From: Limnohabitans sp. Bal53
GTDB taxonomy: Bacteria > Pseudomonadota > Gammaproteobacteria > Burkholderiales > Burkholderiaceae_C
Reading direction: 5' to 3'
DNA: 64,000 nucleotides
NCBI RefSeq assembly: GCF_003063355.1
Contig: NZ_NESH01000005.1
Coordinates: 124,001-188,000, forward strand
The position numbers were made by a program, and so were the translations under genes. The notes under the pieces were generated by a model, which saw only the letters and a program-made list of their open reading frames with translations, had not been told where the DNA came from and ran no database searches. This document shows positions 16,244 to 51,448 of the stretch, piece after piece (positions within the stretch are counted from its first letter, which is position 1; each line of letters starts with the position of its first letter).

Positions 16244-16255
16244 GGCGAGTCCTTG

Positions 16256-17815
16256 TTATGCGTGCAAAGGTGTTTCGTGCTCATAGCGTCCCGTGCCTAA
16301 GCTGCCAGGGCCCATGCGTGCGAACTTGACCATGAGGTACATCTCGACCACCAACAGCACGGTGTAAAAGCCAATAAAGCCTGCCAGTGATCCATACAAG
16401 CTGTTCACGCTGAGCGTGGAGACACTCAGATGGGTCGGCAGCACGCCGTAAATCGTCCAGGGTTGGCGGCCGTACTCGGCCACAAACCAACCCAATTCGC
16501 AAGCGATCCAAGGGGCTGGCAACATCCACAGCGCCGTTTTGAGCAACCAGGGTTTTTCCATGCAGGTCATCTTCAGTGTGCTCCAGAACGCCAGGCCAAA
16601 CAGCACAAGCATGGCAAAGCCGAGCCCCACCATGGCTCGAAATGCCCAAAACATGGGGGTCACACGAGGCACCGTGTCGTTGACCGCACGGTCGATGATG
16701 TCCGGTGTGGCAGCGTTCACATCGTTCACGTATTTCTTCAGCAAAAGACCAAAGCCCAGATCTGCCTTGTGGCGTTCAAACACTTGCTTGGCCACTGTAT
16801 CTTCACGATTGGCGCGCAGGGCTTCGAGCGCATTGACGGCGATGACCCCTTCTTGGATACGCAGGCGGTTCTTGGCTTTGATGTCGTGAATGCCGGGGAT
16901 CTCCTTGCTGATCGAGCGCGTGCCAATCAGGCCCATGACCCAGGGAATTTCGACTTCCCAGTTGTTTTTTTGCTCGGCTTCATTGATGCTGGCCACCAGG
17001 GTCAGCCCTGCTGGTGCGGGTTTGGTTTCCCACATGGCTTCCAATGCGGCCATTTTGGTTTGCTGCGCTTCACCCACGGTGTAGCCTGACTCGTCACCCA
17101 GCACAATGACACTCAAAACGGACGCCAGACCAAAAGCGGCAGCGACCCGAAAGCTCCGTTTGGCAAACTCTACATCGCGTCTTTTGAGCAAATACCAGCT
17201 TGAAATGGACAGTACAAACATGGCACCGGTGACATAACCTGCCGACACCGTGTGGACAAACTTCGCCTGTGCATCTGGGTTGAAGACCACGGCCCAAAAA
17301 TCGGTCATTTCCATGCGCATGGTCAGATAACTGAACTCTGCACCCACCGGGTTTTGCATCCAGCCATTGGCAATCAAAATCCACAACGCCGAGAGGTTGG
17401 TTCCGACCGCCATGAGCAAAGTCACCAGCAAGTGCTGTGTCTTGCTGAGCCGGTCCCAGCCAAAGAAGAAGAGGCCAATCATGGTGGACTCAAGGAAGAA
17501 AGCCATCAAACCCTCGATGGCCAAGGGGGCACCAAAGATGTCGCCCACGTAATGCGAGTAATACGCCCAATTCGTGCCGAACTGAAACTCCAGTGTGATG
17601 CCCGTCGTCACGCCAAGCGCAAAGTTGATGCCAAACAGCTTGCCCCAAAACCGTGTCATGTCTTTCCAAACCACCTTGCCCGTCATGACATAGACGCTTT
17701 CCATGATCACCAAGAGCCAGACCATGCCGAGCGTCAGCGGGACAAAAAGAAAGTGGTACATCGCAGTGGCTGCAAATTGCAGGCGCGACAGATCCACCAG
17801 TTGTTCAGAGATCAT
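16256..17815 (-). CDS. cydA: Cytochrome bd ubiquinol oxidase subunit I
   Basis: The 519-residue protein has H21 in [13 protein letters not shown] (haem b595 ligand equivalent), the acidic pair in [13 protein letters not shown], and the GRQPW segment near residue 450. It is full length and has a long Q-loop region like Escherichia coli CydA. Its ATG overlaps the cydP stop by four bases. The operon runs globin-cydP-cydA-cydB-cydX-ybgE-hydrolase. Confidence 0.97.
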
Positions 17816-19680: not shown

Positions 19681-20001
19681 TCATGATTTCCCGGCGCGAA
19701 TCAACACAATGGTCAGAATGCCCAGAAGCAGCATCAAAAGGGACAAGAGGCTGTGCTGTTGGCGTATGTGCAAACTGTGCAAGAGATCGCCCAAGGCGAT
19801 GTACAAAAAACTGGCCCCCGAGACGGCCAACAGGTAGGGCACGCAGGCTTTGATGTCGCTGAGCATCCAGTAACCGAGCATGGCCCCTGCGCTGCCCAAG
19901 ATGGCCATCCATAACAACAAATTCAGATCTGAAGAGAACACGGGTTGCTTGATTTCCAAAGTGACGAAGTGGGCCTGCTGCCCGTTGCAAAAAACACGCA
20001 T
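19681..20001 (-). pseudogene. Truncated ZIP-family metal transporter, C-terminal part only
   Basis: The 106-residue frame has three membrane segments resembling the last helices of ZIP zinc transporters: LLLWMAILGSAGAMLGYWML, ACVPYLLAVSGASFLYIALGDLLHSLH and LLSLLMLLLGILTIVLI. Full ZIP proteins have about eight helices. The N-terminal helices and the histidine-containing metal site are absent, and the sequence upstream is the fisR regulatory region. Either a gene was truncated or a short derivative is still made. The first 20 residues do not look like ZIP sequence. Confidence 0.6.
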
Positions 20002-20021
20002 TGGCGGATGAAAATGAGGTA

Positions 20022-20038
20022 CTCAATATCCATGCCAA
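20022..20038 (-). promoter_or_regulatory. Sigma-54-like promoter of the ZIP remnant-DsrE operon
   Basis: On the minus strand TTGGCATG-GATA-TTGAG has a good -24 element and correct spacing. The -12 reads TTGA in place of TTGC. It lies about 20-35 bp before the ZIP-remnant start and about 64 bp from the shared activator motif. Confidence 0.45.
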
Positions 20039-20080
20039 CCATAAGGTGCAGGCGAGTCCTTGAAATGAACCGATATTTGC

Positions 20081-20115
20081 TGACAGGTTCTGTCAAATAT
20101 GACGGTCAATGTCAT
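20081..20115. promoter_or_regulatory. Putative FisR binding region between fisR and the DsrE operon
   Basis: Two inverted repeats lie side by side: TGACAG-GTT-CTGTCA at 20081-20095 and ATGAC-N7-GTCAT at 20099-20115. Embedded at 20090-20110 is the motif CTGTCAAA-N5-CGGTCAAT, shared at 18 of 21 positions with 28194-28214. It would serve the minus-strand sigma-54 promoter and perhaps autoregulation of fisR, whose start is at 20143. Confidence 0.6.
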
Positions 20116-20142
20116 ACTTCGGGCAGCCATTTTGGATTGACC

Positions 20143-21450
20143 ATGCCCACGCCCAAAGAACTCATTGCTTACCTTGACGGCCTGCCTGAACCGCACATCG
20201 TTTTTGACCCCGACTACCGCATCATTGCGGCCAACACCGCCTACCAGCGCGATTACGGCCAAGGCCAAACTGTGGTGGGGCGCTGCTGCTATCAAGTCTC
20301 GCACCACATCGACGTGCCCTGCGACCAAGCCGGTGAATCGTGTCCTATGGCCCGTTCGCGTCAATCCAGGCAGGTCGAACGGGTTTTGCACCTGCACCAC
20401 ACGGCGCATGGCGAGGAGTACGTGAACATTGAATTGACCCCCATCTTGGGAGAGGATGAGCAGCCTGCTTTTTACGTTGAAAAAATGGCCACCATGCCCT
20501 TGGCCAGTTCGGCCCCTCTTGCGCAAGGGCTGATTGGTCGCTCGGCTGCATTCCAGCGCATGCTGGAATTGTTGGCGCGGGTGGCTCCCGCCAAGGCCAG
20601 CGTCTTGTTGTTGGGCGAATCCGGAACGGGCAAAGAACTTCTGGCCCGAGCCCTCCACGAAGCCAGTCCACGCGCGCGAAAACCCCTGGTGGTGGTGGAC
20701 TGCGCCAGTTTGACCGAGAGCCTGTTCGAGTCTGAGCTGTTTGGCCACGAGCGAGGGGCCTTTACCGGTGCCAACCAAGCCAAGCCCGGCTTGGTGGAGG
20801 TGGCGCATGGGGGCACTTTGTTTTTGGACGAGGTGGGCGACATACCTTTGGCCATGCAAGTCAAGCTCTTGCGTTTGTTGGAGTCTGGTACACACCGCCG
20901 CGTGGGCAGCACCGAGTTACGCCATACCGATTTGCGCATAGTGGCTGCCACGCACCGTGATTTGGCGGGCATGGTGGCACAAGGTGATTTCCGCGAAGAC
21001 CTTTACTACCGATTGAGTGTGTTTCCGATTGCAGTGCCGCCGTTGCGTGAGCGCCATGGTGACTTGGCCTTGTTGGTGCCTTCTTTGCTCGAACGTGTGG
21101 CACCACAGCGGCGCTTGCGCTTGTCAGCGGCGGGCTTGGCGGTGTTGGAGTGTCAACACTTTCGGGGCAATGTGCGCGAATTGCGCAACCTGCTCGAGCG
21201 CAGCGCCTTGTTGTGTGATGGACAAACCCTGGAAGCTGAGCACATCACCTTGGCCCTGAGTACGGGGGGCAGCGAACGCGAGCGCATTCCTGAACCACCT
21301 CTGGGCATGCCCATGCGCAGCTTGCAAGAAGCCAGTGCTGCAGAGCTGCGTCGACTGCTTGCGGCCCATCAAGGCAGCCGCGCCGAACTGGCTGCACAAC
21401 TCGGCATGAGCGAGCGCACGCTGTACCGTAAGCTCAAGTCTTTGGGCTAA
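20143..21450 (+). CDS. fisR: Sigma-54-dependent activator of FisR type (sulfane-sulfur sensor)
   Basis: The 435-residue protein has an N-terminal PAS-like sensory domain, an AAA+ domain with Walker A GESGTGKE at 158-165 and the sigma-54 contact loop GAFTGA, and a C-terminal Fis-type helix-turn-helix ([20 protein letters not shown]). Cysteines 49, 60 and 67 have 11- and 7-residue spacing. As I recall this is the spacing of the three cysteines by which Cupriavidus FisR senses polysulfide. FisR activates sulfide-oxidation genes through sigma-54. The ATG at 20143 is preferred; an in-frame ATG upstream would run through the operator. It is divergent from the DsrE operon. Confidence 0.82.
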
Positions 21451-21460: not shown

Positions 21461-22762
21461 TCAGTGCTCTTGGTGCAGCTTGTCGTGGATGCGCTTGTTG
21501 GTGCGCCAGACCAGCCACAGCACCAGGGGGACAAATGCGCCTGCGGCCATTTCGGGATGGATGGGCAGGCCTGCGGCCTTGGCGGCTTTGCCCAGGTAGA
21601 GCAACAAGCTGATGACGTAATACGAGATGGCCGCGATCGACAGGCCTTCCACTGTGGTTTGCAAGCGCAGTTGAAGCGCCTGGCCTTTGGTGAGTTTTTC
21701 CAGCAATTGGCTGTTTTGCTCTTCCGTGGCGATGTCCACACGCGTTCGCAGCAAAGCACTTGTGCGACTGATGCGCTCGGACAGCGAGGACAGTCGCTGC
21801 CCCGTGGCAGCCACCGTGGCCATGGCGGGCGACAAGCGCCGTTGCATGAATTCACCGATGGTCTGCGTGCCGCTGATGGGCGACTCGCGCAGCTCCGCAA
21901 TGCGCTCGCGCACCAACTTGTTGTAAGCGGCGGTGGCAGCAAAGCGAAACGCATGTTCGGCGGTGATGAGTTCGACCGATGCGGCCAGACCGATCAGGCG
22001 GTCCAGCATGTTTTGGTCTTGTGCGGCCTTGTTTTGCAAGGCTGCGGTGATGTCGGCGAGTTCGCGCTCAGCCTGACCTAATTGCGCACCCACGGCTTTG
22101 GCCACAGGCAAGCCTCGCAGGGCCATCAGGCGATAAGTTTCCAGCTCAAGCAAGCGCTGGGAAATGCGGCCACCACGGGTGTCACTGGTGGATTCGGGGG
22201 CCAGCACCAAGATGCGCTCAAAACCACTGGGGCGCAAACGGAAATCCGTCACTACCAGCGAGTGTGCGGGATTGCCCATGCGCGAGGCGACCACGGTGTG
22301 TTCGCCAAACCAATGTCGAGCTTTGCGCAAGGATTTCTGGGGGTCGATCAGGTCATCGTGCAGCATGATGAGCTTGACAGCCGCGAAGGTGCGCCCGGGA
22401 ATGGCGGCCAGCCAACCGTCAGGCAAGGCCAGGAAGGACAACAGTTCTGGGTCCTGTGCCTCGAGGCCCGCGTCTTGAGGCAGCGGCTGTACCAGCGAGT
22501 AGCGGGTGAATTCGGTGTGCCGCTCCCACTTGAGTGTGTAGGCCCCCAGGCGCAAGCGAACAAAGTTGCCTTGCATGTCCTCGAGCTTCAAATCGGGTTG
22601 GAGTCGCTTGAGGTGCTCACACTCCTGCTCGCGGCTGACCCCGTTGTTGAACACACCCACCAAGACGATGAAAGCTGGCAAGCGGATGCGGGCGCTCGGT
22701 CGGGCATGCACCTCGTTGTGCAGCGCAATGCGCAAAGGATCATCTACTGGCAGGGTATTCAT
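21461..22762 (-). CDS. DUF3422 family membrane protein
   Basis: The 433-residue protein has the DUF3422 N-terminus (LHNEVHARPSARIRLPA) and the long helical middle of the family. The C-terminus has two hydrophobic segments (SIAAISYYVISLLLYLGKA and AGAFVPLVLWLVW). The function is unknown, though the family is common in Burkholderiales. It converges on fisR with a 10-bp gap and does not appear to belong to the sulfur operons. Confidence 0.88.
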   Translation of the reverse strand: MNTLPVDDPLRIALHNEVHARPSARIRLPAFIVLVGVFNNGVSREQECEHLKRLQPDLKLEDMQGNFVRLRLGAYTLKWERHTEFTRYSLVQPLPQDAGLEAQDPELLSFLALPDGWLAAIPGRTFAAVKLIMLHDDLIDPQKSLRKARHWFGEHTVVASRMGNPAHSLVVTDFRLRPSGFERILVLAPESTSDTRGGRISQRLLELETYRLMALRGLPVAKAVGAQLGQAERELADITAALQNKAAQDQNMLDRLIGLAASVELITAEHAFRFAATAAYNKLVRERIAELRESPISGTQTIGEFMQRRLSPAMATVAATGQRLSSLSERISRTSALLRTRVDIATEEQNSQLLEKLTKGQALQLRLQTTVEGLSIAAISYYVISLLLYLGKAAKAAGLPIHPEMAAGAFVPLVLWLVWRTNKRIHDKLHQEH

Positions 22763-22891: not shown

Positions 22892-23683
22892 TCAGCGTTG
22901 CGCCGGCAAGTCGGCGTAGTAGGTGGCCAGGGCTTCGATTTCTTCGCGGCTCAAGCGCATGGCAAACGTGCGCATGCCTTGGGCGGCGTCGTTGGTGCGG
23001 TGGCCGGTTTGGTAGTCGAGCATGGTGCGCACAAAGTACAGCGGGTTTTGGCCAGCCAACGCAGGCGCTTCCAGCTTGCCGCCCTGGCCACGCGTGCTGT
23101 GGCAGCTGGCACAGGGGGTGATGAGGCGCGATGGATCGCCTTTGCGCACCAGTTGTTCGGGGTTGATCTTGGCCACGGGGCGGGGGGTGCCATCGCCTTG
23201 TGGGGCTTTTTGTACCGCGTAATAAGCACCCACATCGGCGATTTGTTGCGGCGTCATCATCACAGCGATGTCGTGCATCAACTCGGCGCCCTTGTTGTTG
23301 ACGTGGCGGCGGTCGCGGTAGTCCATCAACATCTTGGCGGTGTAGGCGGCTTTTTGGCCGGCCAAGTGGGGCCAGTTTTGGGTGGGGGCCACGCCGGTTT
23401 CGCCGTGGCACGAGGCACAAAACATCTGCTGGTTGACCACACGACCACGTTCGGCGTCGCCTTTGGGCAAGGCCGTCAAGGCCGTGCGCAAGGTGGCGGG
23501 CGTCCAAGCCGCCGCCGCTGGGGCCTGGGTTTCAGACGCGCGCGAGGGGCTGGCCACCACACCGACCACCAAGGCCGCGGCCGCGGCCACGGTGAACACC
23601 TGGCGCGCACGGCGTGCCCAACCGTCGGTCACGGCGGTGAGCTCTTGCAAGTAAGGATCGTGGGAATGAGGATCTTGTGTCAT
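22892..23683 (-). CDS. Dihaem cytochrome c, FccA/c4-like
   Basis: The 263-residue protein has a membrane-spanning signal (FTVAAAAALVVGVVASPSRA) and two c-type haem motifs, FCASCHG and PCASCHS, each in a c4-like repeat. Dihaem c4-type cytochromes are the electron-accepting subunit of flavocytochrome c sulfide dehydrogenase. It is the last gene of the operon, just after the flavoprotein gene. The ATG at 23683 has GGA seven bases upstream; in-frame ATGs at 23698 and 23704 are alternatives that abut the fccB stop. Confidence 0.86.
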   Translation of the reverse strand: MTQDPHSHDPYLQELTAVTDGWARRARQVFTVAAAAALVVGVVASPSRASETQAPAAAAWTPATLRTALTALPKGDAERGRVVNQQMFCASCHGETGVAPTQNWPHLAGQKAAYTAKMLMDYRDRRHVNNKGAELMHDIAVMMTPQQIADVGAYYAVQKAPQGDGTPRPVAKINPEQLVRKGDPSRLITPCASCHSTRGQGGKLEAPALAGQNPLYFVRTMLDYQTGHRTNDAAQGMRTFAMRLSREEIEALATYYADLPAQR

Positions 23684-23705
23684 GTTGCGTTCCAGCATCT
23701 TCATC

Positions 23706-25064
23706 TCAGGCAAAGCAATCGGCGGTGAAGGTGCGCAACCAAGCTTGTTGGTAGCGCGCACCGAGCTTGATCTGCGCGGGGGTGGCGTTCAGGGGCAGGT
23801 AACGGCCTTTGCCGTTGATGCGACCGATCTTGCCGTCGGCCTGGATCTTGAAGACGTCGGCCACGAACAGGCCGTAGTCTTTGCCGGCCAAGGCGTAGCA
23901 GGTGTTTTCCCACAGGGGTTCGGGCGCGGTTTTGCCAGCCAGCTCTTCCACGATGGCGCGTGCCACCACCTTGGCTTGGGTGTTGGCCGAGAAGCCGCTC
24001 TTGGGCATGGCGTCGGCGATGCTCGCGTCGCCAATGACGTAGACGTTGGGCACCAAGGTCGAGGCAAAGGTGCGACGCTGTACCGGGCAAAAACCGCTGC
24101 TGTCGGCCAGCCCCAAAGTGGCGGCCACTTGACCGGCTTTCATGGGAGGAATGACGTTGATGACGTCGGCCTTGATGGTCTCGCCTTCGGTTTCGATGCG
24201 CATGTTTTTGGCATCGATCTTGAGCGTGCGGCCACCGTCTTTGCCGCGCACCCAGCTCAGCATGCTGGGCTTGCTGTGTTGGGTCATCTCGACTTGGCTC
24301 GACATTTTCTGCACGTAGTCGTCGGGCAGGTTGAAGTTGTACAAGCGGTTCCAGCCCAGCATCATGGTCTCGTCGGTGACGAAGCTGTCTTTGGGGTCAA
24401 CGATGATGACCTTGGCCGTGGGGTTGTGCTTGGCAAACCACTCTGTCATGAGCGCAGCGCGCTCGTAGGGGCCGGGCGGGCAGCGGTAGGGGTTGGGTGG
24501 CGCGGCCAGCACAAAGGTGCCGCCTTGGCGCATGCCTTGGAGCTGCTTGGCCAACAAGGCGGTTTGCTGACCCGGGATCCAACCCGAAGGCACCGATTGG
24601 TTGGCCACGGCTTCGCTGTAGCCTTCGTAAGCGCTGTACATCAGCTGAATGCCAGGCGAAACGATCAGGCGGTCATAGCCGATTTTCTTCTTGCCCAGGG
24701 TGCTGATTACCCGCGCTTGTGGGTCGAGGCCAGTCACGGTGTCGAACACAAACTCAATGCCATAGCGGCTCTTGAGGCCGTCGTAGCTCACATTCAGATC
24801 GTCCATCTTGGCGTGCTGGTTGAGCACTTCGGATGAACCGTAGGGGCGCACATAGACCGGGTTCTTTTCGATCACGGTCACGCGCAGTTGCGGGTTGAAC
24901 AGCTTGAGGTATTTGGCGGCGGTGGCACCACCGACACCGCCACCGACGATGACGATGTGGGCGGCGTTGTTGGCAAATGCCAAGCTGGGTGCAGCGGCCA
25001 CGGACAAGAGGCCCAAGGCCTGGGTGAGCCATTCTCGGCGAGACGTGTCGTGCGTGGGGTTCAT
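23706..25064 (-). CDS. fccB: Flavocytochrome c sulfide dehydrogenase flavoprotein, FccB/SoxF-like
   Basis: The 452-residue FAD enzyme has a Tat signal (SRREWLTQ) and the dinucleotide fold HIVIVGGGVGGATAA. Cysteines C195 (NPYRCPPGPYERA) and C326 (SGFCPVQRR) match the redox-active disulfide pair of FCSD. FCSD oxidises sulfide to sulfane sulfur in the periplasm and passes electrons to cytochrome c. Its start overlaps the stop of the monohaem cytochrome gene (ATGA). The usual partner, a dihaem cytochrome, follows immediately. Confidence 0.92.
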   Translation of the reverse strand: MNPTHDTSRREWLTQALGLLSVAAAPSLAFANNAAHIVIVGGGVGGATAAKYLKLFNPQLRVTVIEKNPVYVRPYGSSEVLNQHAKMDDLNVSYDGLKSRYGIEFVFDTVTGLDPQARVISTLGKKKIGYDRLIVSPGIQLMYSAYEGYSEAVANQSVPSGWIPGQQTALLAKQLQGMRQGGTFVLAAPPNPYRCPPGPYERAALMTEWFAKHNPTAKVIIVDPKDSFVTDETMMLGWNRLYNFNLPDDYVQKMSSQVEMTQHSKPSMLSWVRGKDGGRTLKIDAKNMRIETEGETIKADVINVIPPMKAGQVAATLGLADSSGFCPVQRRTFASTLVPNVYVIGDASIADAMPKSGFSANTQAKVVARAIVEELAGKTAPEPLWENTCYALAGKDYGLFVADVFKIQADGKIGRINGKGRYLPLNATPAQIKLGARYQQAWLRTFTADCFA

Positions 25065-25474
25065 CGTTGCGCTCCTTGTGCTTCAAAAAACGCGCCCATG
25101 CCTTTGAGGTCTTCATCACTGAAGCCCTTGGCCACGTAGCCCATCAGGGTCGCGGGGCGGCGGCCTTCGCGGAAATCGATCATGGTCTTGACGAATTGGC
25201 CAGCGGGCATGCCCGCAAGCGGCGCAAACGATTCGTCGCCCAACTGGCCGTTGGTGCCGTGGCACGCCGCGCAGCTGTGGGCCATGGTGCTGGCCGGCAC
25301 GGGCGCGCTGTTGGGCACGGGTGCTGGCGCAGGGGCGGCGGCGTTTTGTGCCAAGGCACGCGCGGTCAGAGAGGCCACCACGGTGGCGCTCAGGGCGATC
25401 ATCACGCTCCAAGCCACCACGGTGCGGCGCGTGCCGCGCGGCAAGGCGCGGACGGGGGTTTGCTTTGTGTTCAT
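25061..25474 (-). CDS. Monohaem cytochrome c of the fcc operon
   Basis: The 137-residue protein has an N-terminal membrane segment or signal (VVAWSVMIALSATVVASLTARALA), an alanine-proline linker and one haem motif (SCAACHG). It resembles half of a c4 cytochrome. Translation is coupled to fccB by a four-base overlap, and it lies 18 bp after the bd-like membrane gene. It may carry electrons between the flavoprotein and the membrane complex, which is inference. Confidence 0.87.
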   Translation of the reverse strand: MNTKQTPVRALPRGTRRTVVAWSVMIALSATVVASLTARALAQNAAAPAPAPVPNSAPVPASTMAHSCAACHGTNGQLGDESFAPLAGMPAGQFVKTMIDFREGRRPATLMGYVAKGFSDEDLKGMGAFFEAQGAQR

Positions 25475-25492
25475 GTGTTCACTCCAGGGCGA

Positions 25493-26719
25493 TCAACGCG
25501 CCCAGACCCAAAAACCGATGGCGAAATACGCCACCGTCCAGGCCACCAACAGACTCACCGACCATTGGCCCATGCGGGTCACCGCGGGGCTGGGGGTGTA
25601 GACACCGTCTTTGTGTTGACCGGCTTGCCACGCCACGGTGAGCAAGTAAGCCAGCGTGGTGCCGCCGATCACCGCAAAGGTGACGAAGAACAAGACCGTG
25701 CTGTACCAGTCCATGTTGATGCGGTAGTCCATCGCGTCGTAACCGTGGCTGCCCAAGAGCGTGACGAAGCGCAGCACTTCACGCGCCGCACCGACCACGA
25801 TCAAAGCCACCGCACCGGCGCCAAACACGGCATAGCCCCAGACACCACGGTCCAGGCGTGCGCGCAAAGCCAGGGGCATGGCCACCACGGCCAACAAGGC
25901 CGCCACGGCCAGCCACATCCACACGGAGCCGGCGAACCACTGCATTTTTTCGGGCAGGGTCATCATCCAAGCCGCGCCGATCAGCACACTGACCACACCG
26001 CCGATGACCATCAAGCGCTGGGCCAAGCTCAGCACAAAACCCAAATACGCCGCGTCGGTTTCTTTGGCGCCTTGCAGGTAGCGGCGGTAGGCCAACAACC
26101 AGGCACCGGTGACGGGCGCGGACAAAGCGATGAAGAACAAGAAACGCGCCATGTGCCACTGGTGCAAGCTGTGGCCGCTGGGGTCAATCTGACCACCGGG
26201 GGCGTACCACTCGATCCAACGCTCGGGGTAGAACATCTGGTTGCTCAAGCTGTGCACGATGAAGCCCACCGCCAACAAGAGCACGATGGACAAGACCATC
26301 CAATAGCCACCACGGCCACCGTCGGCCACGATGTCGTGGTTCTTCCAGTAGAAGGCGTACATGGCGATGTAGCCACCGATGAGCAAGACGATGAAGCCGA
26401 TCACCCACCAAGCCGACAAAACGTTGGACGTGTACCAGAAGGGGTCGTAGACCACCTGCACGAACAGCAGCGGGGCCACACCGATCACGATGGCCACCGA
26501 GACGGCGATCTTGGCGGTCACGAGCATGGCGCTGGCCAAGCGGCGCCATTTCACATCGGCTTGGAAGGCGCCGCGCAAGGTCAACGTGGCCGCACCGAGC
26601 ATGACCTGCACCGCTGCGATGTGCAGGGCGAAGGTGAGCACACCCAAGATCAGGAAGATCACCGGGTGCGAAGGCACACCCGCTTGATCGCGCAAGGCGT
26701 AGAGCATTTCAGGGGTCAT
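25493..26719 (-). CDS. Polytopic membrane protein, second subunit of a bd-like complex
   Basis: The 408-residue protein has about ten hydrophobic segments. Its first part (FLILGVLTFALHIAAVQVMLGAATL and PLLFVQVVYDPFWYTSNVLSAWWVIGFIVLLIGGYIAMYAF) resembles the helical core of bd-type oxidase subunits, but overall similarity is weak. The start MTPEMLYALRDQ at 26719 is 4 bp after the upstream gene. With the cytochrome-fused protein upstream it probably forms a two-subunit membrane complex. No known enzyme can be named confidently. Confidence 0.75.
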   Translation of the reverse strand: MTPEMLYALRDQAGVPSHPVIFLILGVLTFALHIAAVQVMLGAATLTLRGAFQADVKWRRLASAMLVTAKIAVSVAIVIGVAPLLFVQVVYDPFWYTSNVLSAWWVIGFIVLLIGGYIAMYAFYWKNHDIVADGGRGGYWMVLSIVLLLAVGFIVHSLSNQMFYPERWIEWYAPGGQIDPSGHSLHQWHMARFLFFIALSAPVTGAWLLAYRRYLQGAKETDAAYLGFVLSLAQRLMVIGGVVSVLIGAAWMMTLPEKMQWFAGSVWMWLAVAALLAVVAMPLALRARLDRGVWGYAVFGAGAVALIVVGAAREVLRFVTLLGSHGYDAMDYRINMDWYSTVLFFVTFAVIGGTTLAYLLTVAWQAGQHKDGVYTPSPAVTRMGQWSVSLLVAWTVAYFAIGFWVWAR

Positions 26720-26723
26720 GGGT

Positions 26724-28091
26724 TTACTCCTTGGCCTGCACCGCTTGCACTGAGGCGAGTGGCTTGGCAATGGACTGGATGAAGGCGGCCAAGGCACGCG
26801 CTTCGACGTCGTTCAACGGCACCTGGGGCATGTACAAGGTGTTGCCACCCGACAAAGCGGCTTGCAAGTACGTGGCGACGTCGGCTTCGCTGTGGGTGCC
26901 CACAAAGTATTGGGCCAAGGGACGCATGCCGGTGCTGGAAAGCGAGTGGCAGTTCGAGCAAGTGGCCAAGGCCAAAGCACGACCGGCTTCCACGCGGTTG
27001 GCGTCCGTCACGGTGCGCAGGTGCTCGGGCATGAACACATGGGTCTTCAAGAAACCGTGGGCTTCGATGGTCGGGATCTCGGACTTCACGCCCATGCCGG
27101 GCACGTCGCGACCCACGACTTGGTTGGAGTAGACGTACTGACCGGCCACCCAAGGCTTGCGGATGGACTCGCGCGCCACCTCTTCGGGCCACAGGCCAAA
27201 GACCAAAATCACCACCGTCATCACACCGGCCAAGCCCGAGACGATGGCCCGGGGCTGCACCAAGGTGAGCAAGAAGTAAGCGATGGTGCCGCCCACTGCG
27301 GCCATCAAGGCCATGGGGAAGTGCGCGGGCAAGCGGTTTTCCAACACCACTTCAGCGGTTTCGGGCAAGGTGGCCAAGTACCACTGCAGCATGAGCGCGC
27401 CAATGACCGCAGCGGCCATGCCCAGCACGGCCAACTGGCGGCCGATCTGTTTTTTCACCGCCAGGTCTTTGAAGCTACCGACCACAATGCCACCCACCAC
27501 GGCGGTGATGGTGAACATAAAGGCCGTGCGCATGCCCAGCTGCGCAAAGGTGTTGGGGCCAAAGAAGGCGTTGAGCACACCACCGGTCTCGGTCCAGTTG
27601 GCGTTGCCCGGCCACATCATGAAGCTCAAGATGCCCACGATCACCAACATGGTGGTGTAGGAGGTCAAGCCAAAGATCACGGCGATGCGGGTGTGGGTTT
27701 TGACGTCGATGCGACCTGCCAAATAGACCAGCATGTAGACGCCCACCACCTCGATCACAAAGAACACCCACTCGGTGGCCCACATCCACACAAAACTGTG
27801 GATCAGCGCCGAGATCCCGCGCGGGCTGGCCACCGTGGTGGCGAACCAAATGCCGGGGCCGGTGATGGAGCCCAAGACGTAACTGAACACCAGCAAGAAC
27901 AGGCCGTAGCGCCTGATGAATTCGAGCAACTCGGGTTTGTTGTGGCGGTGTGCGTGGTTGGCCAACCAAGCAAAGAAGATGGCCGCGCCGACCGAGGTGT
28001 GTGAGAACAGCACGTGGATGGTGGCAATCAAGCCCACCACCCAACCACTGCCCACGCCCGGTTCGAACCAAGTGGGGTAAAGACCGATCAT
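26724..28091 (-). CDS. bd-oxidase-like membrane protein with fused C-terminal cytochrome c
   Basis: The 455-residue protein has about nine hydrophobic segments. The first helix (WVVGLIATIHVLFSHTSVGAAIFF) and a helix with H98, E107 and E114 (ALIHSFVWMWATEWVFFVIEVVG) recall the haem region of CydA. However, the two glutamates are seven apart, not eight, and there is no long Q-loop. A class I cytochrome c follows, with CSNCH at 378-382 and axial Met in TLYMPQ. This fits divergent bd-like families thought to use cytochrome c, not quinol. It is the first gene of the fcc operon, behind a sigma-54-like promoter. Confidence 0.82.
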   Translation of the reverse strand: MIGLYPTWFEPGVGSGWVVGLIATIHVLFSHTSVGAAIFFAWLANHAHRHNKPELLEFIRRYGLFLLVFSYVLGSITGPGIWFATTVASPRGISALIHSFVWMWATEWVFFVIEVVGVYMLVYLAGRIDVKTHTRIAVIFGLTSYTTMLVIVGILSFMMWPGNANWTETGGVLNAFFGPNTFAQLGMRTAFMFTITAVVGGIVVGSFKDLAVKKQIGRQLAVLGMAAAVIGALMLQWYLATLPETAEVVLENRLPAHFPMALMAAVGGTIAYFLLTLVQPRAIVSGLAGVMTVVILVFGLWPEEVARESIRKPWVAGQYVYSNQVVGRDVPGMGVKSEIPTIEAHGFLKTHVFMPEHLRTVTDANRVEAGRALALATCSNCHSLSSTGMRPLAQYFVGTHSEADVATYLQAALSGGNTLYMPQVPLNDVEARALAAFIQSIAKPLASVQAVQAKE

Positions 28092-28125: not shown

Positions 28126-28142
28126 AAGCATTAAACGTGCCG
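28126..28142 (-). promoter_or_regulatory. Sigma-54-like promoter of the fcc/bd-like operon
   Basis: On the minus strand CGGCACG-N4-ATGCT has the conserved GG and GC exactly ten bases apart, the sigma-54 hallmark, and a perfect GGCACG. The predicted transcription start is roughly 25 bp before the first gene of the operon. The shared activator motif lies about 63 bp upstream. Confidence 0.65.
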
Positions 28143-28375: not shown

Positions 28376-29101
28376 ATGCTCCAAGCACTGATCTTTGATG
28401 TCGACGGCACCTTGGCCGACACCGAAATGGCCCATTTGGCAGCGTTCAACCACGCCTTTGCAGAGATGGGGATGGACTGGCGCTGGGATGTGCCGCTGTA
28501 CACCCGCTTGTTGGCCGTCTCAGGCGGCAAAGAGCGCATCAAGGCGTATTGGCAAACCCTGGGGACCCAGCCCAAGGACATCACGGGTGCGGGCATGCAG
28601 GAGACGATTGATCACCTGCACGAGATCAAGACCGCCGCTTACGAGCAAGCCGTGCAAGACGGTGCGGTGCAGATGCGCCCCGGGGTGCTGGCGCTGCTGT
28701 CAGCGGCCAGTGCGGCGGGGCTCAGGCTGGCCATTGCCACCACCACCTCGCCCGTCAACATCGCGGCTTTGCTGCGACAAGCCATCGGTCCAGATTGGAA
28801 GTTGAATTTCTCGGTCATCGAAGACGCTTCGACTGCACCGCGCAAAAAACCCGATCCGATGGTCTACCAGCAAACCCTGTCCCGCCTTGGGCTTGCGCCA
28901 GAGCATTGCCTGGCGTTTGAGGATTCCGAAAACGGTCTGCACGCCGCTGTGGCCGCAGGTTTGTCAACGGTCATCACCCCCAACGATTTCACTGCCGATC
29001 ACGATTTCAAAGGCGCATTGCGCATTGTCCCCAGCCTCGATGGCGTGGGGCTGGCGCAGTTGCGTGAATGGCACCAATCCGCTTTCAAGGCCACCGCATG
29101 A
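28376..29101 (+). CDS. cbbY: CbbY, HAD-superfamily sugar-bisphosphate phosphatase
   Basis: The 241-residue protein has HAD motif [12 protein letters not shown] at residues 7-17 and the later KKPDPMVYQ and [11 protein letters not shown]. CbbY dephosphorylates xylulose-1,5-bisphosphate, a RuBisCO misfire inhibitor. It opens the nine-gene cbb operon and overlaps cbbE by ATGA. The start codon immediately follows a strong hairpin. Confidence 0.92.
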
Positions 29102-29784
29102 GCACCGTCCGCATTGCCCCCTCCATCTTGTCCGCCGACTTTGCCCGTTTGGGCGAAGAGGTCCGCGCCATTGAAGCCGCAGGCGCGGATTGGGTGCACT
29201 TTGACGTAATGGACAACCATTACGTGCCCAACCTCACCATTGGCCCGTTGGTGTGCGAGGCGATCCGCCCGCATGTCCAGATCCCGATCGATGTGCATTT
29301 GATGGTCGAGCCCGTAGATGCGCTGGTGCCCTTGTTTGCCAAGGCCGGGGCCAACATCATCACCTTTCACCCCGAAGCCAGCCGCCATGTGGACCGCACT
29401 TTGCAAATGATCCGCGACCACGGCTGCAAAGCGGGCCTGGTGTTCAACCCGGCTACGCCGCTGGAGTGGATGGACCATGTGATGGACCGCTTGGACGTGG
29501 TCTTGCTCATGAGCGTCAACCCTGGTTTTGGTGGCCAAAAATTCATCCCCTCGACCTTGCCCAAGCTGCAAGCGGCCCGCCAGCGCATCAACACCCATGT
29601 GGCCCGGGGTGGTCAGCCCATCGTGCTGGAGGTGGACGGCGGCGTGAAGACCGACAACATCGCCCAGATCGTGGCGGCCGGTGCCGACACCTGCGTGGCG
29701 GGCAGCGCCGTGTTCGGTGCGCCCGACGCCGATGGGGGCTATCGGGGTGTGATGCAAGCCCTCAAGCAAGCCGCTGTGCCTTGA
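29098..29784 (+). CDS. cbbE: Ribulose-phosphate 3-epimerase
   Basis: The 228-residue TIM-barrel enzyme has the motifs [48 protein letters not shown] and EVDGGV. It interconverts ribulose-5-phosphate and xylulose-5-phosphate in the Calvin cycle and pentose phosphate pathway. The ATG at 29098 overlaps the cbbY stop. Confidence 0.97.
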
Positions 29785-29834
29785 ATTGAATTCCGAATTC
29801 CAGAATTTTTAAAACTTCAGAGAGTGTTGACCCC

Positions 29835-30932
29835 ATGTCCTTGAGCCCCCGCACCACACCCACCTTGACGCAGTACCTGATCGAAGAGCGTCGCCGTTAT
29901 CCCGATGCCAGTGGTGACTTCAATGCCCTGATTTTGGATGTGGCCATGGCCTGTAAAGCCATCGCCAAATCGGTCGCCTACGGCGCTTTGGCCGACATGT
30001 ATGGCAACCACGCGGCTGATGCAGGCGGCAGCATCAACGTACAAGGCGAGACTCAGAAAAAGCTGGACGTGGTGAGCAATGAATTGTTCATTCGCATGAA
30101 CGAGTGGGGCGGTCATTTGGCGGGCATGGCCTCTGAAGAAATGGATTTGCCCTATGACATTCCAGCGCAACACCCCCGGGGCAAATACCTGCTGGTTTTT
30201 GATCCGCTGGATGGCTCCAGCAACATCGATGTGAACGTGTCGGTGGGTAGCATTTTCAGTGTGCTGCGTGCACCGGATGCCACCGCCGAAGGCGGGCCTT
30301 TGACCGAGGCTGATTTCTTCCAGCCGGGAACCCGCCAGATTGCTGCCGGTTACGCCTTGTATGGCCCCACCACCATGTTGGTGCTCAGTGTGGGCAATGG
30401 CGTGGCGGGTTTCACGCTGGACCCGGTGATGGGCGAGTTCATGCTGACGCACCCCGAATTGCGCGTGCCCGAAGACACCCAAGAGTTCGCCATCAACGCC
30501 TCCAACAGCCGCTTTTGGGAAGCCCCGGTCAAGCGCTATGTGGACGAATGCCTGGCCGGTAAAACCGGCCCGCGTGGCAAGGACTTCAACATGCGCTGGA
30601 TCGCCTCCATGGTGGCCGAAGCCCACCGCATTCTGATGCGCGGCGGTGTGTTCATGTACCCCCGTGACACCAAAGATCCGAGCAAGCCCGGCCGTCTGCG
30701 CCTGCTGTACGAGGCCAATCCAGTCGGCTTCATCATGGAACAAGCCGGTGGACGCGCCAGCACGGGACAGGTGCCCATGTTGAGTGTGCAGCCCACCAGC
30801 TTGCACCAGCGCATTGGCCTGGTGTTTGGCTCCAAAAACGAGGTCGAGCGCATCGAGCGTTACCACGCCGAGCCGCCCAAGCAAGACAGTTTTGCACCGC
30901 TGTTTGCCGAACGCAGCCTGTTCCGGGACTGA
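29835..30932 (+). CDS. cbbF: Fructose-1,6-bisphosphatase class I
   Basis: The 365-residue enzyme has the metal and substrate motif [12 protein letters not shown] and the C-terminal GGRAS segment. It hydrolyses fructose-1,6-bisphosphate and, in many Calvin-cycle bacteria, sedoheptulose-1,7-bisphosphate. It lies 50 bp after cbbE and 42 bp before phosphoribulokinase. Confidence 0.96.
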
Positions 30933-30974
30933 GCCCGATTTCAAAACGATTGAAAAAACAACAAGGAGATTCCC

Positions 30975-31859
30975 ATGTCTGAACGCCACCCCATCATCGC
31001 CATCACCGGTTCTTCGGGCGCAGGCACCTCAACGGTGACACGCACGTTCTCGAACATCTTCCGCCGCGAAGGCGTGAAAGCGGCCATCATCGAAGGCGAC
31101 AGCTTTCACCGCTTTGACCGCAAAGAAATGAAGCAACGTGGCGCTGAAGCTGAAAAAGATGGCAACAAACATTTCAGCCATTTCAGCGCCGAGAACAACC
31201 TGTTTGGCGAAATTGAAAATCTGTTTCGCACCTACGGCGCCACGGGTCAGGGCAAGTCACGCAAATACCTGCACAACGCCGAAGAGGCCGCGCCTTATCA
31301 ACAAGACCCCGGCACGTTCACACCCTGGGAAGACTTGCCGAACGACACCGACATGCTGTTTTACGAGGGCTTGCACGGCGCCGTGGTCACGCCCGAGCAC
31401 AACATCGCGCAGCACCCCGACTTGCGCGTGGGTGTGGTGCCCGTCATCAACCTCGAATGGATTCAGAAACTCTGGCGTGACAAGCATCAGCGCGGCTACA
31501 GCACAGAGGCCGTGACCGACACCATCTTGCGCCGCATGCCCGACTATGTGAACTACATCGTGCCGCAGTTTGAGCACACGCATGTCAATTTCCAACGAGT
31601 GCCTTTGGTCGACACCTCCAACCCCTTCATTTCGCGCGACATTCCGTCGGCCGATGAAAGCGTGGTGGTGATCCGTTTTGCCAACCCCAAAGGCATCGAC
31701 TTTCCCTACTTGCTCAACATGATCAATGACTCTTGGATGAGCCGTGCCAACACCATCGTGGTGCCCGGGGGCAAGATGGAAATCGCCATGCAGCTGATCT
31801 TCACGCCTTTTGTCTGGCGGATGATGGAGCGCCGTAAACGTGCGCTGGGTCAGGTTTGA
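30975..31859 (+). CDS. cbbP: Phosphoribulokinase
   Basis: The 294-residue kinase has the P-loop GSSGAGTST at 12-20, the [10 protein letters not shown] segment and the length of octameric bacterial phosphoribulokinases. It makes ribulose-1,5-bisphosphate for RuBisCO. AAGGAG precedes the ATG. Together with cbbLS it shows the pathway is a true Calvin cycle. Confidence 0.97.
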
Positions 31860-31875
31860 AGCGGAGAAAAAGCCC

Positions 31876-33972
31876 ATGAACACCGTTGAAAAACACCCCA
31901 CTCCCGAGATGGCGCGCCGCATGGCCAACGCCGTGCGCATGCTGGCCGTTGACGCCGTCGAAGCCGCCAAGTCTGGCCACCCCGGTGCCCCTATGGGCAT
32001 GGCCGACATCGCCGAAGTGCTGTGGAACCGGCACCTGAAACACAACCCACTCAACCCGCAATGGGCTGACCGCGACCGTTTTGTGTTGTCCAACGGCCAC
32101 GGCTCCATGCTGATTTATGCCTTGCTGCACCTGACAGGTTACGACCTGCCTTTGGATGAGCTGAAAAAGTTCCGCCAACTGCACAGCAAGACCCCTGGCC
32201 ACCCTGAAGTGGACATCACGCCTGGCGTGGAAACCACCACCGGCCCACTGGGCCAAGGCATCACCAACGCCGTGGGCATGGCGCTGGCCGAAAAGCTGCT
32301 GGCCGATGAATTCAACCGCGAAGAAGACGGTCAGCGCCTGGACATCGTGGACCACATGACCTATGTGTTCCTGGGCGATGGCTGCCTGATGGAAGGCATC
32401 AGCCACGAGGCTTGTTCGCTGGCGGGCACCTTGCGCCTGTCCAAACTGGTGGCGCTGTACGACGACAACGGCATCTCGATCGATGGCCATGTGGAAGGCT
32501 GGTTCACGGACGACACGCCCAAGCGCTTTGAGGCCTATGGCTGGAACGTGATCGCCAAGGTGGATGGGCATGACCCGCAAGCGGTCAACGCCGCCATCGA
32601 AGCGGCCAAGGCGCAAGCCCACAGTGCGAACGGCAAACCCACGCTGATTTGCTGCCAAACCGTGATCGGCATGGGTTCACCCAACAAAGCGGGCACCCAC
32701 GATGTGCACGGCGCAGCGCTGGGCGCTGCCGAAGTGGCCGCCACCCGCGAAGCGCTGAACTGGCCTTACGCGCCCTTTGAAGTGCCTGCCGATGTGGCCA
32801 CTGCATGGGATGCCCGGGCCAGTGGCACACGGGCCGAAAGCCAATGGCGGGAGCGCTTTGCCACCTATCAAAGTCGCTACCCGGAAGAGGCGGTTGAATT
32901 TGAGCGTCGCATGAAAGGCGACTTGGGTGAGGCCTACGCCCAGGGGCTGGCAAAAGCTTTGGCGGCCATCGTGGCCAAACCCGATGCCGTGGCCACCCGC
33001 AAAGCCAGCCAAAATGCGCTCGATGTGTTGGCCCCCTTGTTGCCCGAGTTTTTTGGCGGCAGCGCCGACCTGACGGGCTCCAACCTGACCAACTTCAAAA
33101 CTTGTACCAAAGCGGGCCGCGACACCTGGGGCAACCACCTCTCGTATGGCGTGCGCGAGTTTGGCATGGCCGCCATCATGAACGGCATGGCGCTGCATGG
33201 GGGATACATCCCTTATGGCGGCACATTCCTGACGTTCTCGGACTATTCGCGCAATGCCATCCGCATGGCAGCGCTCATGAAAAAGCGCGTGATCCATGTC
33301 TTCACGCACGACTCGATTGGGTTGGGCGAAGACGGCCCCACGCACCAAAGCGTGGAGCATGTACCCAGCTTGCGCATCATCCCGGGGCTGGATGTGTGGC
33401 GCCCCGCCGATGGCTTGGAAACGGCTGTGGCCTGGGCCTGTTCGGTGGAACGCCGCGATGGCCCGAGCGCTTTGGCGCTGTCGCGCCAGAACCTGCCGCA
33501 GTTGTTGACCGACGCCGCCGATGCGGCCAAGGTGCGCCAAGGCGGCTACATCCTGAGCGACATGCCGGGGGCCCAAGCCATCATCGTGGCCACAGGGTCC
33601 GAGACCTCTTTGGCCATGAAAGCGCAAGCCGAACTGGCCACCCAAGGCGTGGCCACACGGGTGGTGTCCATGCCCTGCACCAATGTGTTTGACCGGCAAA
33701 GCGAGGCTTACCAGGACATGGTCTTGCCGTTGGGTTTGCCCACCGTGGCGGTGGAAGCCGCGCACCCGGATTTTTGGCGCAAATACGTGGGCCGTACCGG
33801 CATGGTGATTGGTATGAACAGCTTTGGTGAGTCGGCTCCGGCCCCTGCTTTGTATGCGCACTTTGGCATCACCACCGAGCGCGTGTGTGAAGCGGTACGC
33901 ACCCTGGTGCATCGCCACACCCACCGCCAGGCTCAAGCTCTGCCCGCGCACATCGTGCCTTCCGACAATTGA
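31876..33972 (+). CDS. cbbT: Transketolase
   Basis: The 698-residue enzyme has the thiamine diphosphate motif [13 protein letters not shown], the N-terminal [13 protein letters not shown] and the pyrimidine-domain [12 protein letters not shown]. It moves two-carbon units in the regenerative part of the cycle. The ATG at 31876 is preferred over upstream in-frame codons because GGAG lies at 31863-31866 and the longer form would overlap cbbP. Confidence 0.97.
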
Positions 33973-33999
33973 GATGCCAGCCCACTGGAAAGAGAAAAA

Positions 34000-34665: not shown

Positions 34666-34704
34666 AGCATGTGCCGGGCCATCTTGCCTTGATTTTTATT
34701 TTGA

Positions 34705-35742
<1,038 letters not shown>

Positions 35743-35755
35743 TCGGGAGGCAGAC

Positions 35756-36952: not shown

Positions 36953-36993
36953 GTTGCTGAACACTGTAGTTTTTATTTTTTTGGAGAATTTTC

Positions 36994-50239: not shown

Positions 50240-50309
50240 TTTCAAGCCCATTGACTTGAACAACATGGCATGATTTAGAAAGCTCGATTGGTACTCGTGG
50301 CTTTTGTTT

Positions 50310-50343: not shown

Positions 50344-50357
50344 GATTGGAGACTCGT

Positions 50358-51425: not shown

Positions 51426-51448
51426 TCCGGCATCAACAGGAGAAATCA

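Follow-up and report, generated by a model that had tools for sequence, protein, structure and literature searches.

A stretch of 64,000 nucleotides from Limnohabitans sp. Bal53 (contig NZ_NESH01000005.1, positions 124,001 to 188,000; hereafter the window) contains an operon in which genes for a flavocytochrome c sulfide dehydrogenase (FCSD) lie together with genes for two membrane proteins that have the fold of the cytochrome bd subunit CydA. We consider it probable that this operon encodes a quinone-independent path from sulfide to oxygen, in which electrons would pass from FCSD to a cytochrome c4, from there to the haem c of membrane protein A and finally to O2. The five genes are found in the order A-B-C-F-D at positions 22892-28091 (Table 1) and they are as tightly spaced on the minus strand as the sequence-only reading had described, with 4 bp between A and B, 18 bp between B and C, an ATGA overlap of C and F and 1 bp between F and D. 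The start of B seems better placed at 26719, an ATG that is 4 bp past the stop of A, than at the mechanically assigned 26797. Similarly, the ATG one base past the stop of F (23704) is the likely start of D, as against the mechanical 23761.

Table 1 Features of the operon and its surroundings, in positions of the window
Feature	Position	Strand	Description
Gene A	26724..28091	-	CydA-like membrane part (fold residues 9-325) and C-terminal monohaem cytochrome c (C378-x-x-C381-H382, M421)
Gene B	25493..26719	-	Polytopic, second membrane protein of the CydA fold; paralogue of A; H33 and R317 kept, two TM3 glutamates absent
Gene C	25061..25474	-	Monohaem cytochrome c with one CXXCH; N-terminal hydrophobic stretch; half-length, FccA-like
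Gene F	23706..25064	-	FccB, FCSD flavin subunit; Pro where the covalent-FAD cysteine would be
Gene D	22892..23704	-	Dihaem cytochrome c4-type carrier; two CXXCH
Candidate sigma-54 type -24/-12 promoter	28127..28142	-	35 bp upstream of the A start
PAS-containing sigma-54 activator, FisR-like	19945..21450	+	Pfam Sigma54_activat, PAS_4 and HTH_8; C-x10-C-x6-C

The membrane proteins A and B

Comparison of A with ten solved CydA entries using VIA-align gave Z scores of 26.6-28.6 and rmsd values of 3.1-3.7 over 306-314 residues. Moreover, A matched the CydA profile with a probability of 95.8 in hhalign and of 97.2 in forced global mode. The A protein of the window has no match to the Pfam family PF01654 (CydA) at E<=1; Pfam and NCBIfam detect the cytochrome c domain only, the C-terminal part being above the cut-off for Pfam Cytochrom_C, and the best 60 of 100 matches were to cytochrome c domains when PDB sequences were searched with the A profile. 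The link of this protein to CydA came from profiles, relatives and fold. For instance, relatives of A in all five selected genomes pass the Pfam CydA cut-off, with PF01654 scores ranging from 70.3 bits (G602) down to those of G710 (25.4; 28.5 with neighbours; 27.4 against 26.2 in a second run).

As reference numbering for the residues of A we used the active-site haem ligands of E. coli CydA, which we take to be H19, E99, E107 and E445, plus R448, and for haem b558 its ligands, presumably H186 and M393. The residues H26, E107, E114, E308 and R311 are present in all 28 aligned A proteins. H26 and E114 were paired with CydA ligands by local hhalign, and E308 was paired with E445 in a weak alternative alignment of 15 columns (prob 0.1) as well as in the forced global alignment. 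The equivalence of E107 to E. coli E99 is only inferred because E107 sits beside an alignment gap. A retains residues matching the bd active-site ligands, and their conservation suggests that it may bind haem. In the global profile alignment, the quinol-binding Q-loop is absent from A, and CydA has a large insert at the corresponding place. The column paired with H186 is His in none of the 28 A proteins. With the b558 histidine lost, it is hard to see how electrons would travel between haem c and the two haems buried in A, which counts against the oxidase reading.

B is, judged by profile comparison, a diverged paralogue of A (hhalign prob 97.1, P 6.4e-11). VIA-align superimposed B on the CydA entries with Z scores of 21.2-24.9 and rmsd values of 4.0-4.6, and the best chain for B was CydA in all ten bd entries. 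B matched no Pfam family and had nothing meaningful in NCBIfam, its profile found no match among PDB sequences, and direct profile comparison with CydA yielded probabilities of 0.0 and 6.2 in two runs; the link of B to CydA goes through A and the fold. B lacks the two glutamates of A, an observation that also counts against the oxidase reading.

The sequence-only reading had claimed the loss of the Q-loop and two glutamates seven residues apart in A, and both features were recovered, the latter as the invariant pair E107 and E114. Its proposal that cytochrome c and not quinol may be the electron donor is likely to be correct for a bd-like core that has no quinol loop. The lack of a haem-binding core in the membrane proteins would have spoken against that reading; both proteins have the bd fold, and haem sites are predicted from the conserved residues.

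A and B share their fold with the quinol oxidase CydAB (E. coli 6rko/6rx4), and equivalents of H19, E107, E445 and R448 are recognisable in addition to a putative one of E99. However, A has neither the Q-loop nor the b558 histidine and carries a fused haem c, and B, as the second subunit, is paralogous to it. The general kind of protein to which A belongs, a member of the bd superfamily without a quinol site, is already published, since quinol-independent bd relatives have been named OR-C and OR-N (PMC10839748, PMC12342949, PMC13189123). In the accessible parts of these papers, the described enzymes resemble A-B in the CydA core, the absent quinol loop, the likely cytochrome c donor (in print for OR-N) and the two CydA-type subunits (CydAA'), whereas FCSD and c4 in one operon are not mentioned there; this likeness is drawn from the published descriptions. 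The lack of a quinol site that characterises OR-C was found in A as well, with the loop absent and the b558 column never His.

The sulfide dehydrogenase genes and the conserved gene order

The best PDB match of C is the FCSD cytochrome subunit 1fcd_C (E 6.7e-15), and F matches Pfam FCSD_central and FCSD-flav_bind as well as PDB 1fcd_A (E 4.9e-103). D is most similar to cytochrome c4 6q2u (E 6.9e-24), whose sequence is also contained in 8smr and 8snh, and it matches 1fcd_C more weakly (E 6.3e-8). Because C best-matches the FCSD haem subunit, the FCSD probably consists of C and F, and the c4 encoded by D would be a shuttle. The true partner of FccB, either C or D, is only inferred because D flanks F too and has the weak match to 1fcd_C. 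In the available text of a study on Thiocapsa bogorovii, FccB was paired with an adjacent gene annotated as cytochrome c4, which was regarded as FccA (PMC10892978). This FccB-c4 pair could equal the F-D pair.

The redox cysteines of FccB in the motifs RCPPxPYER and (F/W)CP are kept in all 28 FccB proteins from the operons. The position of the covalent-FAD cysteine, which we take to be C42 of 1fcd, is occupied by Pro or Ala in 27 of them and by Cys only in L027, and two further operons (L196 and L197) also have Pro. Other FccB proteins, 28 of 30 being readable, have Cys (19) or Gly (9) at this position. The FAD cysteine is not universal among these proteins, and its loss is therefore a subclass trait. 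Compared with FccAB (1fcd; 5n1t, presumably a Thioalkalivibrio-type FCSD), the operon has in common F, an FccA-like C and both redox cysteine motifs, but C has a single haem, the FAD cysteine is replaced as described and oxidase-like membrane genes belong to the operon. D resembles by sequence the dihaem cytochrome c4 of 6q2u and of the bc1-cbb3 supercomplex entries 8smr and 8snh, whereas its predicted acceptor is a bd-type enzyme. The open-licence literature on bd oxidases and FCSD yielded neither an operon that joins FCSD to a bd-like protein nor an FccB subclass without the covalent-FAD cysteine; the absence of the former is weak because only open-licence papers were covered.

A scan seeded with A found 31 loci, with Tepidimonas, Tibeticola and Rhodoferax antarcticus among the cultivable hosts. 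The complete set of five genes recurs in one and the same order and orientation at 27 of these loci. The gene order, for which a survey of genomes had been suggested, is conserved well beyond Limnohabitans sp. Bal53. A is broken in two of the 27 loci, being in pieces in L032 and having an early in-frame stop in L029. Among the remaining four, L008 and L020 end at contig ends, and L030 and L033 have A-B without FccB. The genes have also diverged in a correlated manner, as revealed by Mantel r values over 26 loci of 0.94 for A-B, 0.81 for A-F and 0.86 for A-D (each p 0.001). Furthermore, the FCSD-linked A proteins form one clade, all 11 lying on one side of a branch with a support of 100/100. 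Gene order and correlated divergence support the earlier suggestion of a path from sulfide through haem c to a membrane complex, in the form of a conserved operon. A and B of L027 are 87% identical to those of L025, and FccB is only 40% identical. Like the GMC dehydrogenase gene next to A-B in L030, we count this as an exchange of the donor and in favour of the sulfide:oxygen path. The FccB of L027 has a very long branch (2.31).

A general association of FCSD with A-B was rejected, most FCSD genomes having no A. Among 398 Pseudomonadota genomes, 95 have a match to FCSD-flav_bind and three (G000, G085 and G189) a full-length A; all three also possess FCSD, and A and FccB lie on separate contigs in G085 and G189. 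Neither A nor B was found beside other FccB genes in 20 loci, inspected over stretches of 5.7-12.4 kb. B occurs in six of 200 genomes of the host's family, and in the five besides Bal53, three of which look already counted in the 31-locus scan, it adjoins A and an RPYG-type FccB.

The acceptor of the electrons

In the proposed path, C and F would together make up a flavocytochrome c sulfide dehydrogenase of the periplasm, and two electrons would enter it from sulfide, as suggested by the family. Gene content and precedent suggest that the dihaem c4 D, or C directly, hands the electrons to the C-terminal haem c of A. A and its paralogue B may be the two halves of a heterodimer of the CydAA' kind. 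The fused haem c would serve as the electron entry in place of the lost quinol loop and b558 histidine, and the electrons would move on to two haems in a bd-type site, for which H26, E107, E114 and E308 would be the ligands. At this site O2 would be reduced to water, as judged from the fold, the invariant residues and the gene contexts.

These contexts include apparent respiratory operons with Rieske and cytochrome b genes, within which A-B is found in L130, L132 and L135, and in some loci the gene order is B-Rieske-cytochrome b-A. G602, which has this order, showed no COX1 match and A as the only CydA-family match in a search for two oxidase families, the completeness of this genome not being given. 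A cytochrome b gene lies between B and A in four genomes, and the other three (G713, G761 and G834) also have a full-length COX1; therefore, A is not their sole oxidase. In L124, the operon reads Rrf2-peroxiredoxin-desulfoferrodoxin-A-B. The earlier alternative of an oxygen reductase or an electron gate leans towards oxygen through the Rieske/cytochrome b, peroxiredoxin/superoxide reductase and G602 contexts.

As an electron gate, A-B would send the haem c electrons of FCSD into the quinone pool, perhaps driven by the proton motive force, and feed reverse electron flow and CO2 fixation, with no O2 chemistry. PsrC and ActC/ActF share the fold class of A (VIA-align Z 15.6-18.3), and there is therefore room for quinone chemistry in A-B; moreover, a block of genes that by their sequences resemble those of the Calvin cycle begins on the opposite strand at a distance of about 285 bp, and some hosts are purple sulfur bacteria (Thiohalocapsa and Thiocapsa). 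However, A lacks the quinol loop and fully conserves the residues of the O2 site, the gate would run a futile cycle in operons with a Rieske/cytochrome b complex, and one A-B operon contains superoxide reductase and peroxiredoxin, so that we regard this reading as unlikely. Still less credit is given to a protective oxidase that scavenges O2 or NO with FCSD electrons under sulfide or oxidative stress and conserves little energy. The composition of the L124 operon, the nearby FisR-like regulator and the other oxidases of the host would fit this role, but no stress gene is found among the five of the FCSD operon and L130, L132 and L135 place A-B in an apparently respiratory setting. The host's other oxidases, encoded by two genes for COX1 and two for canonical CydA, also weigh against the sulfide:oxygen path. 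That FCSD and c4 are mere neighbours, feeding soluble cytochrome c and haem-copper oxidases while A-B is reduced by another donor, is very improbable given that the five-gene order is constant, that A, B, F and D have diverged in step with one another and that the FCSD-linked A proteins fall into a single clade, even though A-B has no adjacent FCSD in L030 (where a GMC dehydrogenase adjoins it), L033, L099 and L101 and also occurs in plasmid loci of Methylosinus and Thermus, with an A-like gene in Agrobacterium. Four plasmid records gave a match, and they annotate A simply as 'cytochrome c' or 'c-type cytochrome'; B, which matched in three of them, is annotated as 'hypothetical protein'. An oxidase of the A-B type is therefore easily missed in genome surveys.

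Regulation and implications

The sigma-54 candidate agrees with 10 of 12 consensus positions, which was equalled by one of 300 shuffles. Four of the other 28 upstream regions do equally well, which makes the candidate suggestive only; within 29 A genes the highest score is 9. Conservation of such a promoter ahead of A across the loci was not supported, at least 10 of 12 positions being reached in only five of 29 regions. A homologue of the activator is present in 15 of the 31 loci; 13 of these homologues carry the cysteine motif, and the matches in the remaining two loci begin past it. Like Cupriavidus FisR, which acts on sulfide oxidation genes and whose regulatory cysteines are presumably at positions 53/64/71, the activator is of the sigma-54 type and conserves three cysteines in its regulatory part. 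The accessible part of the FisR study states that the cysteines of the regulatory domain matter (PMC7315123). From its sequence, the activator is a possible sulfide-responsive regulator, which may turn the operon on with sulfide or sulfane sulfur.

A bolder version of the sulfide:oxygen path, which we hold tentatively and with somewhat less than even confidence, is that A-B-C-F-D forms a physical, copper-free and quinone-free sulfide:O2 oxidoreductase. The bd-type enzyme would then be a true cytochrome c oxidase. In these bacteria, FCSD would be served by an oxidase and a c4 shuttle dedicated to it, and its flavin would be re-tuned and bound non-covalently. A-B would be a general plug-in terminal oxidase, joined to a bc complex in Acidobacteriota, to a GMC dehydrogenase in Paraburkholderia and to FCSD in sulfur oxidisers.

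According to the available text of PMC10892978, the physiological role of FCSD is not clarified, as rates of sulfide oxidation are unchanged in knockout bacteria. The subunit composition and function of the c-linked bd relatives of the OR-N type lack experimental confirmation, as stated in the accessible part of the Nitrospinota paper (PMC10839748). One FCSD subclass would gain a definite electron sink if the same operon encoded an oxidase dedicated to it. Moreover, the cassette supplies a donor enzyme and a shuttle along with a putative oxidase of two subunits, so that the reduction of O2 by a bd-type enzyme with electrons from cytochrome c would become directly testable.

Operon architecture and residues of the membrane pair

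The five minus-strand genes, transcribed in the order A-B-C-F-D, are tightly packed: 4 bp separate A from B and 18 bp B from C, C and F share an ATGA overlap, and F and D are 1 bp apart (start codons of B and D revised to 26719 and 23704, respectively). Protein A comprises 455 residues and carries a single C-terminal CXXCH that passes Pfam as Cytochrom_C. In a Pfam and NCBIfam scan, neither the membrane part of A nor B over its whole length gave a Pfam family or a meaningful NCBIfam match. Structure prediction gave good models of both proteins (mean pLDDT 86.0 and 86.7 for A and B, respectively). That of A matches ten solved CydA entries (Z 26.6-28.6, rmsd 3.1-3.7, 306-314 residues), followed by ActC/ActF of alternative complex III (Z 16.9-18.3) and PsrC (Z 15.6). 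The model of B likewise matches CydA (Z 21.2-24.9), alternative complex III (Z 15.8-17.6) and PsrC (Z 13.8). The likeness of both proteins to ActC/ActF and PsrC (Z 13.8-18.3) hints at a wider kinship of bd/NrfD-type folds. Profile comparison also relates A to CydA (prob 95.8, P 7.8e-9, profile residues 13-231; prob 97.2 in forced global mode). On sequence alone, the comparison of B with CydA was not significant (prob 6.2); B is a paralogue of A, as the profiles of the two match each other (prob 97.1, P 6.4e-11). The Pfam scan gave no PF01654 match for the window A. The PF01654 cut-off is passed by the A-family proteins of all five genomes selected from the phylum of L033, a locus with the record title Acidobacteria, and the family is thus tied to CydA by sequence as well.

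The remaining genes encode cytochromes and the flavin subunit of flavocytochrome c sulfide dehydrogenase (FCSD). F is FccB (1fcd_A, E 4.9e-103). C has a single CXXCH, and its closest solved relative is the FCSD haem subunit 1fcd_C (E 6.7e-15). D belongs to the dihaem c4 cytochromes: it matches, at E 6.9e-24, a c4 sequence that is also part of 8smr and 8snh, two entries of the bc1-cbb3 supercomplex. Its match to 1fcd_C is weaker (E 6.3e-8). Judged from these matches, C and F would form the FCSD and D would be a separate shuttle; the assignment stays conditional because D also flanks F and an excerpt of a Thiocapsa paper calls the c4 gene adjoining FccB the FccA subunit (PMC10892978).

None of H26, E107, E114, E308 and R311 varies among 28 chosen A proteins, 11 of them FCSD-linked, nor does any of C378, C381, H382 and M421 in the haem c part. 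In the profile alignment, H26 lies opposite the TM1 histidine of CydA and E114 opposite the second TM3 glutamate; E107 adjoins an alignment gap and presumably corresponds to E99 of E. coli CydA. The RESIRKPW motif of A faces AEYGRQPW of CydA only in a weak third alignment (15 columns, prob 0.1) and in the forced global one. We take this pairing to put E308 at the position of E. coli CydA E445, and the ends of the structural alignment (A 325 opposite 462 of 6rx4) agree with it. The column of the b558 histidine holds Met, Val, Phe, Leu, Ala, Ile or Glu, never His, in the 28 proteins. A also has no counterpart of the large Q-loop of CydA in the forced global profile alignment, as the sequence-only reading had already noted. 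In 22 aligned B proteins, the TM1 histidine H33 and R317 are always kept, and there are no paired glutamates at the position of those of A.

Distribution and gene contexts

A locus scan seeded with A, with one genome per species, yielded 31 loci and is therefore uninformative on frequency. In 27 of them all five genes occur in the same order and on the same strand, so that the arrangement read from one strain is conserved well beyond it; A is broken in two of these (L029 and L032). In L032 (4662-8678; SSC6 chromosome, the genome that also holds L198), A is naturally disrupted: about 2.6 kb of other DNA separates its pieces, and the remaining genes B, C, F and D are all there. A contig edge falls inside the operon in L008 and L020, and L030 and L033 have A-B without FccB. 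According to the record titles, the hosts include Hydrogenophaga, Tepidimonas, Tibeticola, Rhodoferax, Thiohalocapsa, Thiocapsa, Thiosymbion and Thiomicrospira, and one is a MAG labelled Deltaproteobacteria. Full-length A was found in 3/398 genomes of the host phylum, namely the host itself, G085 and G189, the latter two having no FCSD beside A on the contigs read (10.9 and 3.8 kb). B was present in 6/200 genomes of the host family. An FCSD-flav_bind match occurs in 95/398 genomes of the phylum, and none of 20 FccB loci drawn from these matches and read in longer stretches contained A or B. Given these counts and the constant order, the five-gene operon is an uncommon but stable variant.

The genes are also co-inherited. 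In a midpoint-rooted tree of the 28 A proteins, for which the program flags long branches (L035 and L036 among them), the 11 FCSD-linked sequences form one side of a branch with support 100/100. Mantel correlations over 26 loci (L008, L020, L030, L032 and L033 left out) reach 0.94 for A-B, 0.81 for A-F, 0.85 for B-F, 0.86 for A-D and 0.85 for F-D (p 0.001 each), to which shared species history contributes. That FCSD and A-B are merely neighbours is very improbable. L027 is an instructive exception: its A and B are 87% identical to those of L025, its FccB only 40% and its D 51%, as though the membrane module had stayed and its sulfide dehydrogenase been replaced.

The operon FccB differs from other FccB at the position of the cysteine that attaches FAD covalently in 1fcd. 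This position holds Pro or Ala in 27 of 28 operon proteins, in the motif (R/K)PYG or, once, RAYG, and Cys only in L027; the redox cysteines are kept in 28/28. Two further operons (L196 and L197) have RPYG too. Elsewhere, 19 Cys and 9 Gly were found (28 readable of 30 loci), which makes the operon FccB a distinct subclass that probably binds FAD non-covalently. About 28 kb from the operon, the host genome encodes another FCSD pair, an ordinary one that has the Cys; an SQR-like flavoprotein ORF follows that pair (L168 8904-10181).

A-B also occurs in other settings. Searched with the A profile, the phylum of L033 gave matches in 75/247 genomes at E 0.001, many via the cytochrome domain alone, and 53 of them reach E 1e-30. 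Fourteen loci of this phylum were enlarged. Three (L130, L132 and L135) read B-Rieske-cytochrome b-A, and in L134 a cytochrome b-like ORF separates B from A; Rrf2, peroxiredoxin and desulfoferrodoxin genes lie immediately upstream of A-B in L124, and a cytochrome c gene in L137. No donor gene was recognised by eye in the remaining enlarged loci. In L030, A-B is preceded by genes for a GMC oxidoreductase and gluconate-2-dehydrogenase subunit 3 and followed by one for a monohaem cytochrome. Genome G602 (L132), of unstated completeness, gave no COX1 match, and A is its sole CydA-family match; COX1 is present in G713, G761 and G834, where cytochrome b is beside A, and its matches are fragmentary in G710 (L124). 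Methylosinus and Thermus plasmids carry both A and B, and an Agrobacterium plasmid carries an A-like gene whose neighbour gave no B match. Two genomes of the same family have a second A-B copy without FccB (L101 5939-9046 and L063), followed in L101 by a monohaem cytochrome next to an efflux-type ORF. Long CydA-like proteins of 806 and 606 aa with weak PF01654 matches (L097 5322-7742 and L098 5017-6837) and adjoining cytochrome c genes are possibly another c-linked bd type.

Proposed electron path

The analysis establishes F as FccB, D as a c4, the fold and conserved residues of A and the genes' co-inheritance. Each transfer along the path is our inference: electrons would most likely pass from sulfide to the FAD of F, to the haem of C, on to the c4 protein D and to the haem c of A, from which they would reach a two-haem site of A and finally O2. 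A respiratory oxidase is the reading of A-B that we hold, with some reserve, to be probable. This reading is weakened by the loss of the b558 relay, by B having no assigned role and by the fold resemblance to PsrC and proteins of alternative complex III. The resemblance would also suit an electron gate to quinone, which we consider unlikely: the quinol loop is lost, and a quinone-reducing A-B would be futile in the Rieske/cytochrome b operons. Together with the residue set of A and the peroxiredoxin/superoxide-reductase operon, these points favour O2 over quinone. A protective variant of the A-B oxidase is less likely still.

Regulation, surroundings and relation to known enzymes

Features in and around the operon
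Feature	Position	Strand	Remark
Metallo-beta-lactamase-fold protein and adjoining SulP-like transporter	9625-12640		fold by Pfam
Canonical cydAB quinol oxidase genes	15107-17815	minus	operon's strand; ~5 kb from operon 3' end
PAS/sigma-54 activator gene	19945-21450	plus	beyond operon 3' end, past DUF3422 gene
DUF3422 gene	21461-22762		directly after D
Operon A-B-C-F-D	22892-28091	minus
Calvin-cycle-like block	28376-38034	divergent from operon	sequence resemblance; first gene only by Pfam
Sox-like region	49931-60917		two genes checked by Pfam
SoxC-like molybdopterin oxidoreductase	53234-54598		in Sox-like region
SoxB-like 5'-nucleotidase family protein	58123-59868		in Sox-like region
Second FCSD pair (monohaem cytochrome and FccB)	L168 3913-5535 (G000:C24)		~5.5 kb before window start; Cys at flavin position

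Homologues of the activator occur in 15/31 loci, and 13 of these 15 show C-x10-C-x6-C, the other two matches beginning past the motif. The window activator resembles FisR in its regulatory cysteines. Such cysteines contribute in Cupriavidus FisR, and Acinetobacter FisR is without them, according to an excerpt of one study (PMC7315123). A -24/-12 element before the window A scores 10/12, equalled in 1/300 shuffles; this score is reached in only 5/29 upstream regions, and 29 control stretches within A genes peak at 9/12. In 7 loci a homologue of the DUF3422 gene occurs close to the operon, in variable position.

The host has a second CydA on contig C12. The Calvin-like block comprises a HAD phosphatase, epimerase, FBPase, PRK, transketolase, a second HAD, GAPDH, PGK and aldolase, and the Sox-like region also holds SoxY/Z-like ORFs. 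The metallo-beta-lactamase-fold protein looks persulfide dioxygenase-like by eye, and with its transporter may be a sulfur detoxification pair.

In the portions of the literature consulted, the bd superfamily is split into qOR, OR-C and OR-N (PMC13189123), OR-N CydAA' probably uses cytochrome c, with experimental confirmation wanting (PMC10839748), and OR-N5 enzymes of Nitrospirales come after alternative complex III genes (PMC12342949). Given the published OR-C/OR-N division, and as we found no description of the A-B-C-F-D operon in open-licence literature on bd oxidases or FCSD, bd relatives without a quinol site are a kind already known, and the FCSD-linked operon is apparently the new part.
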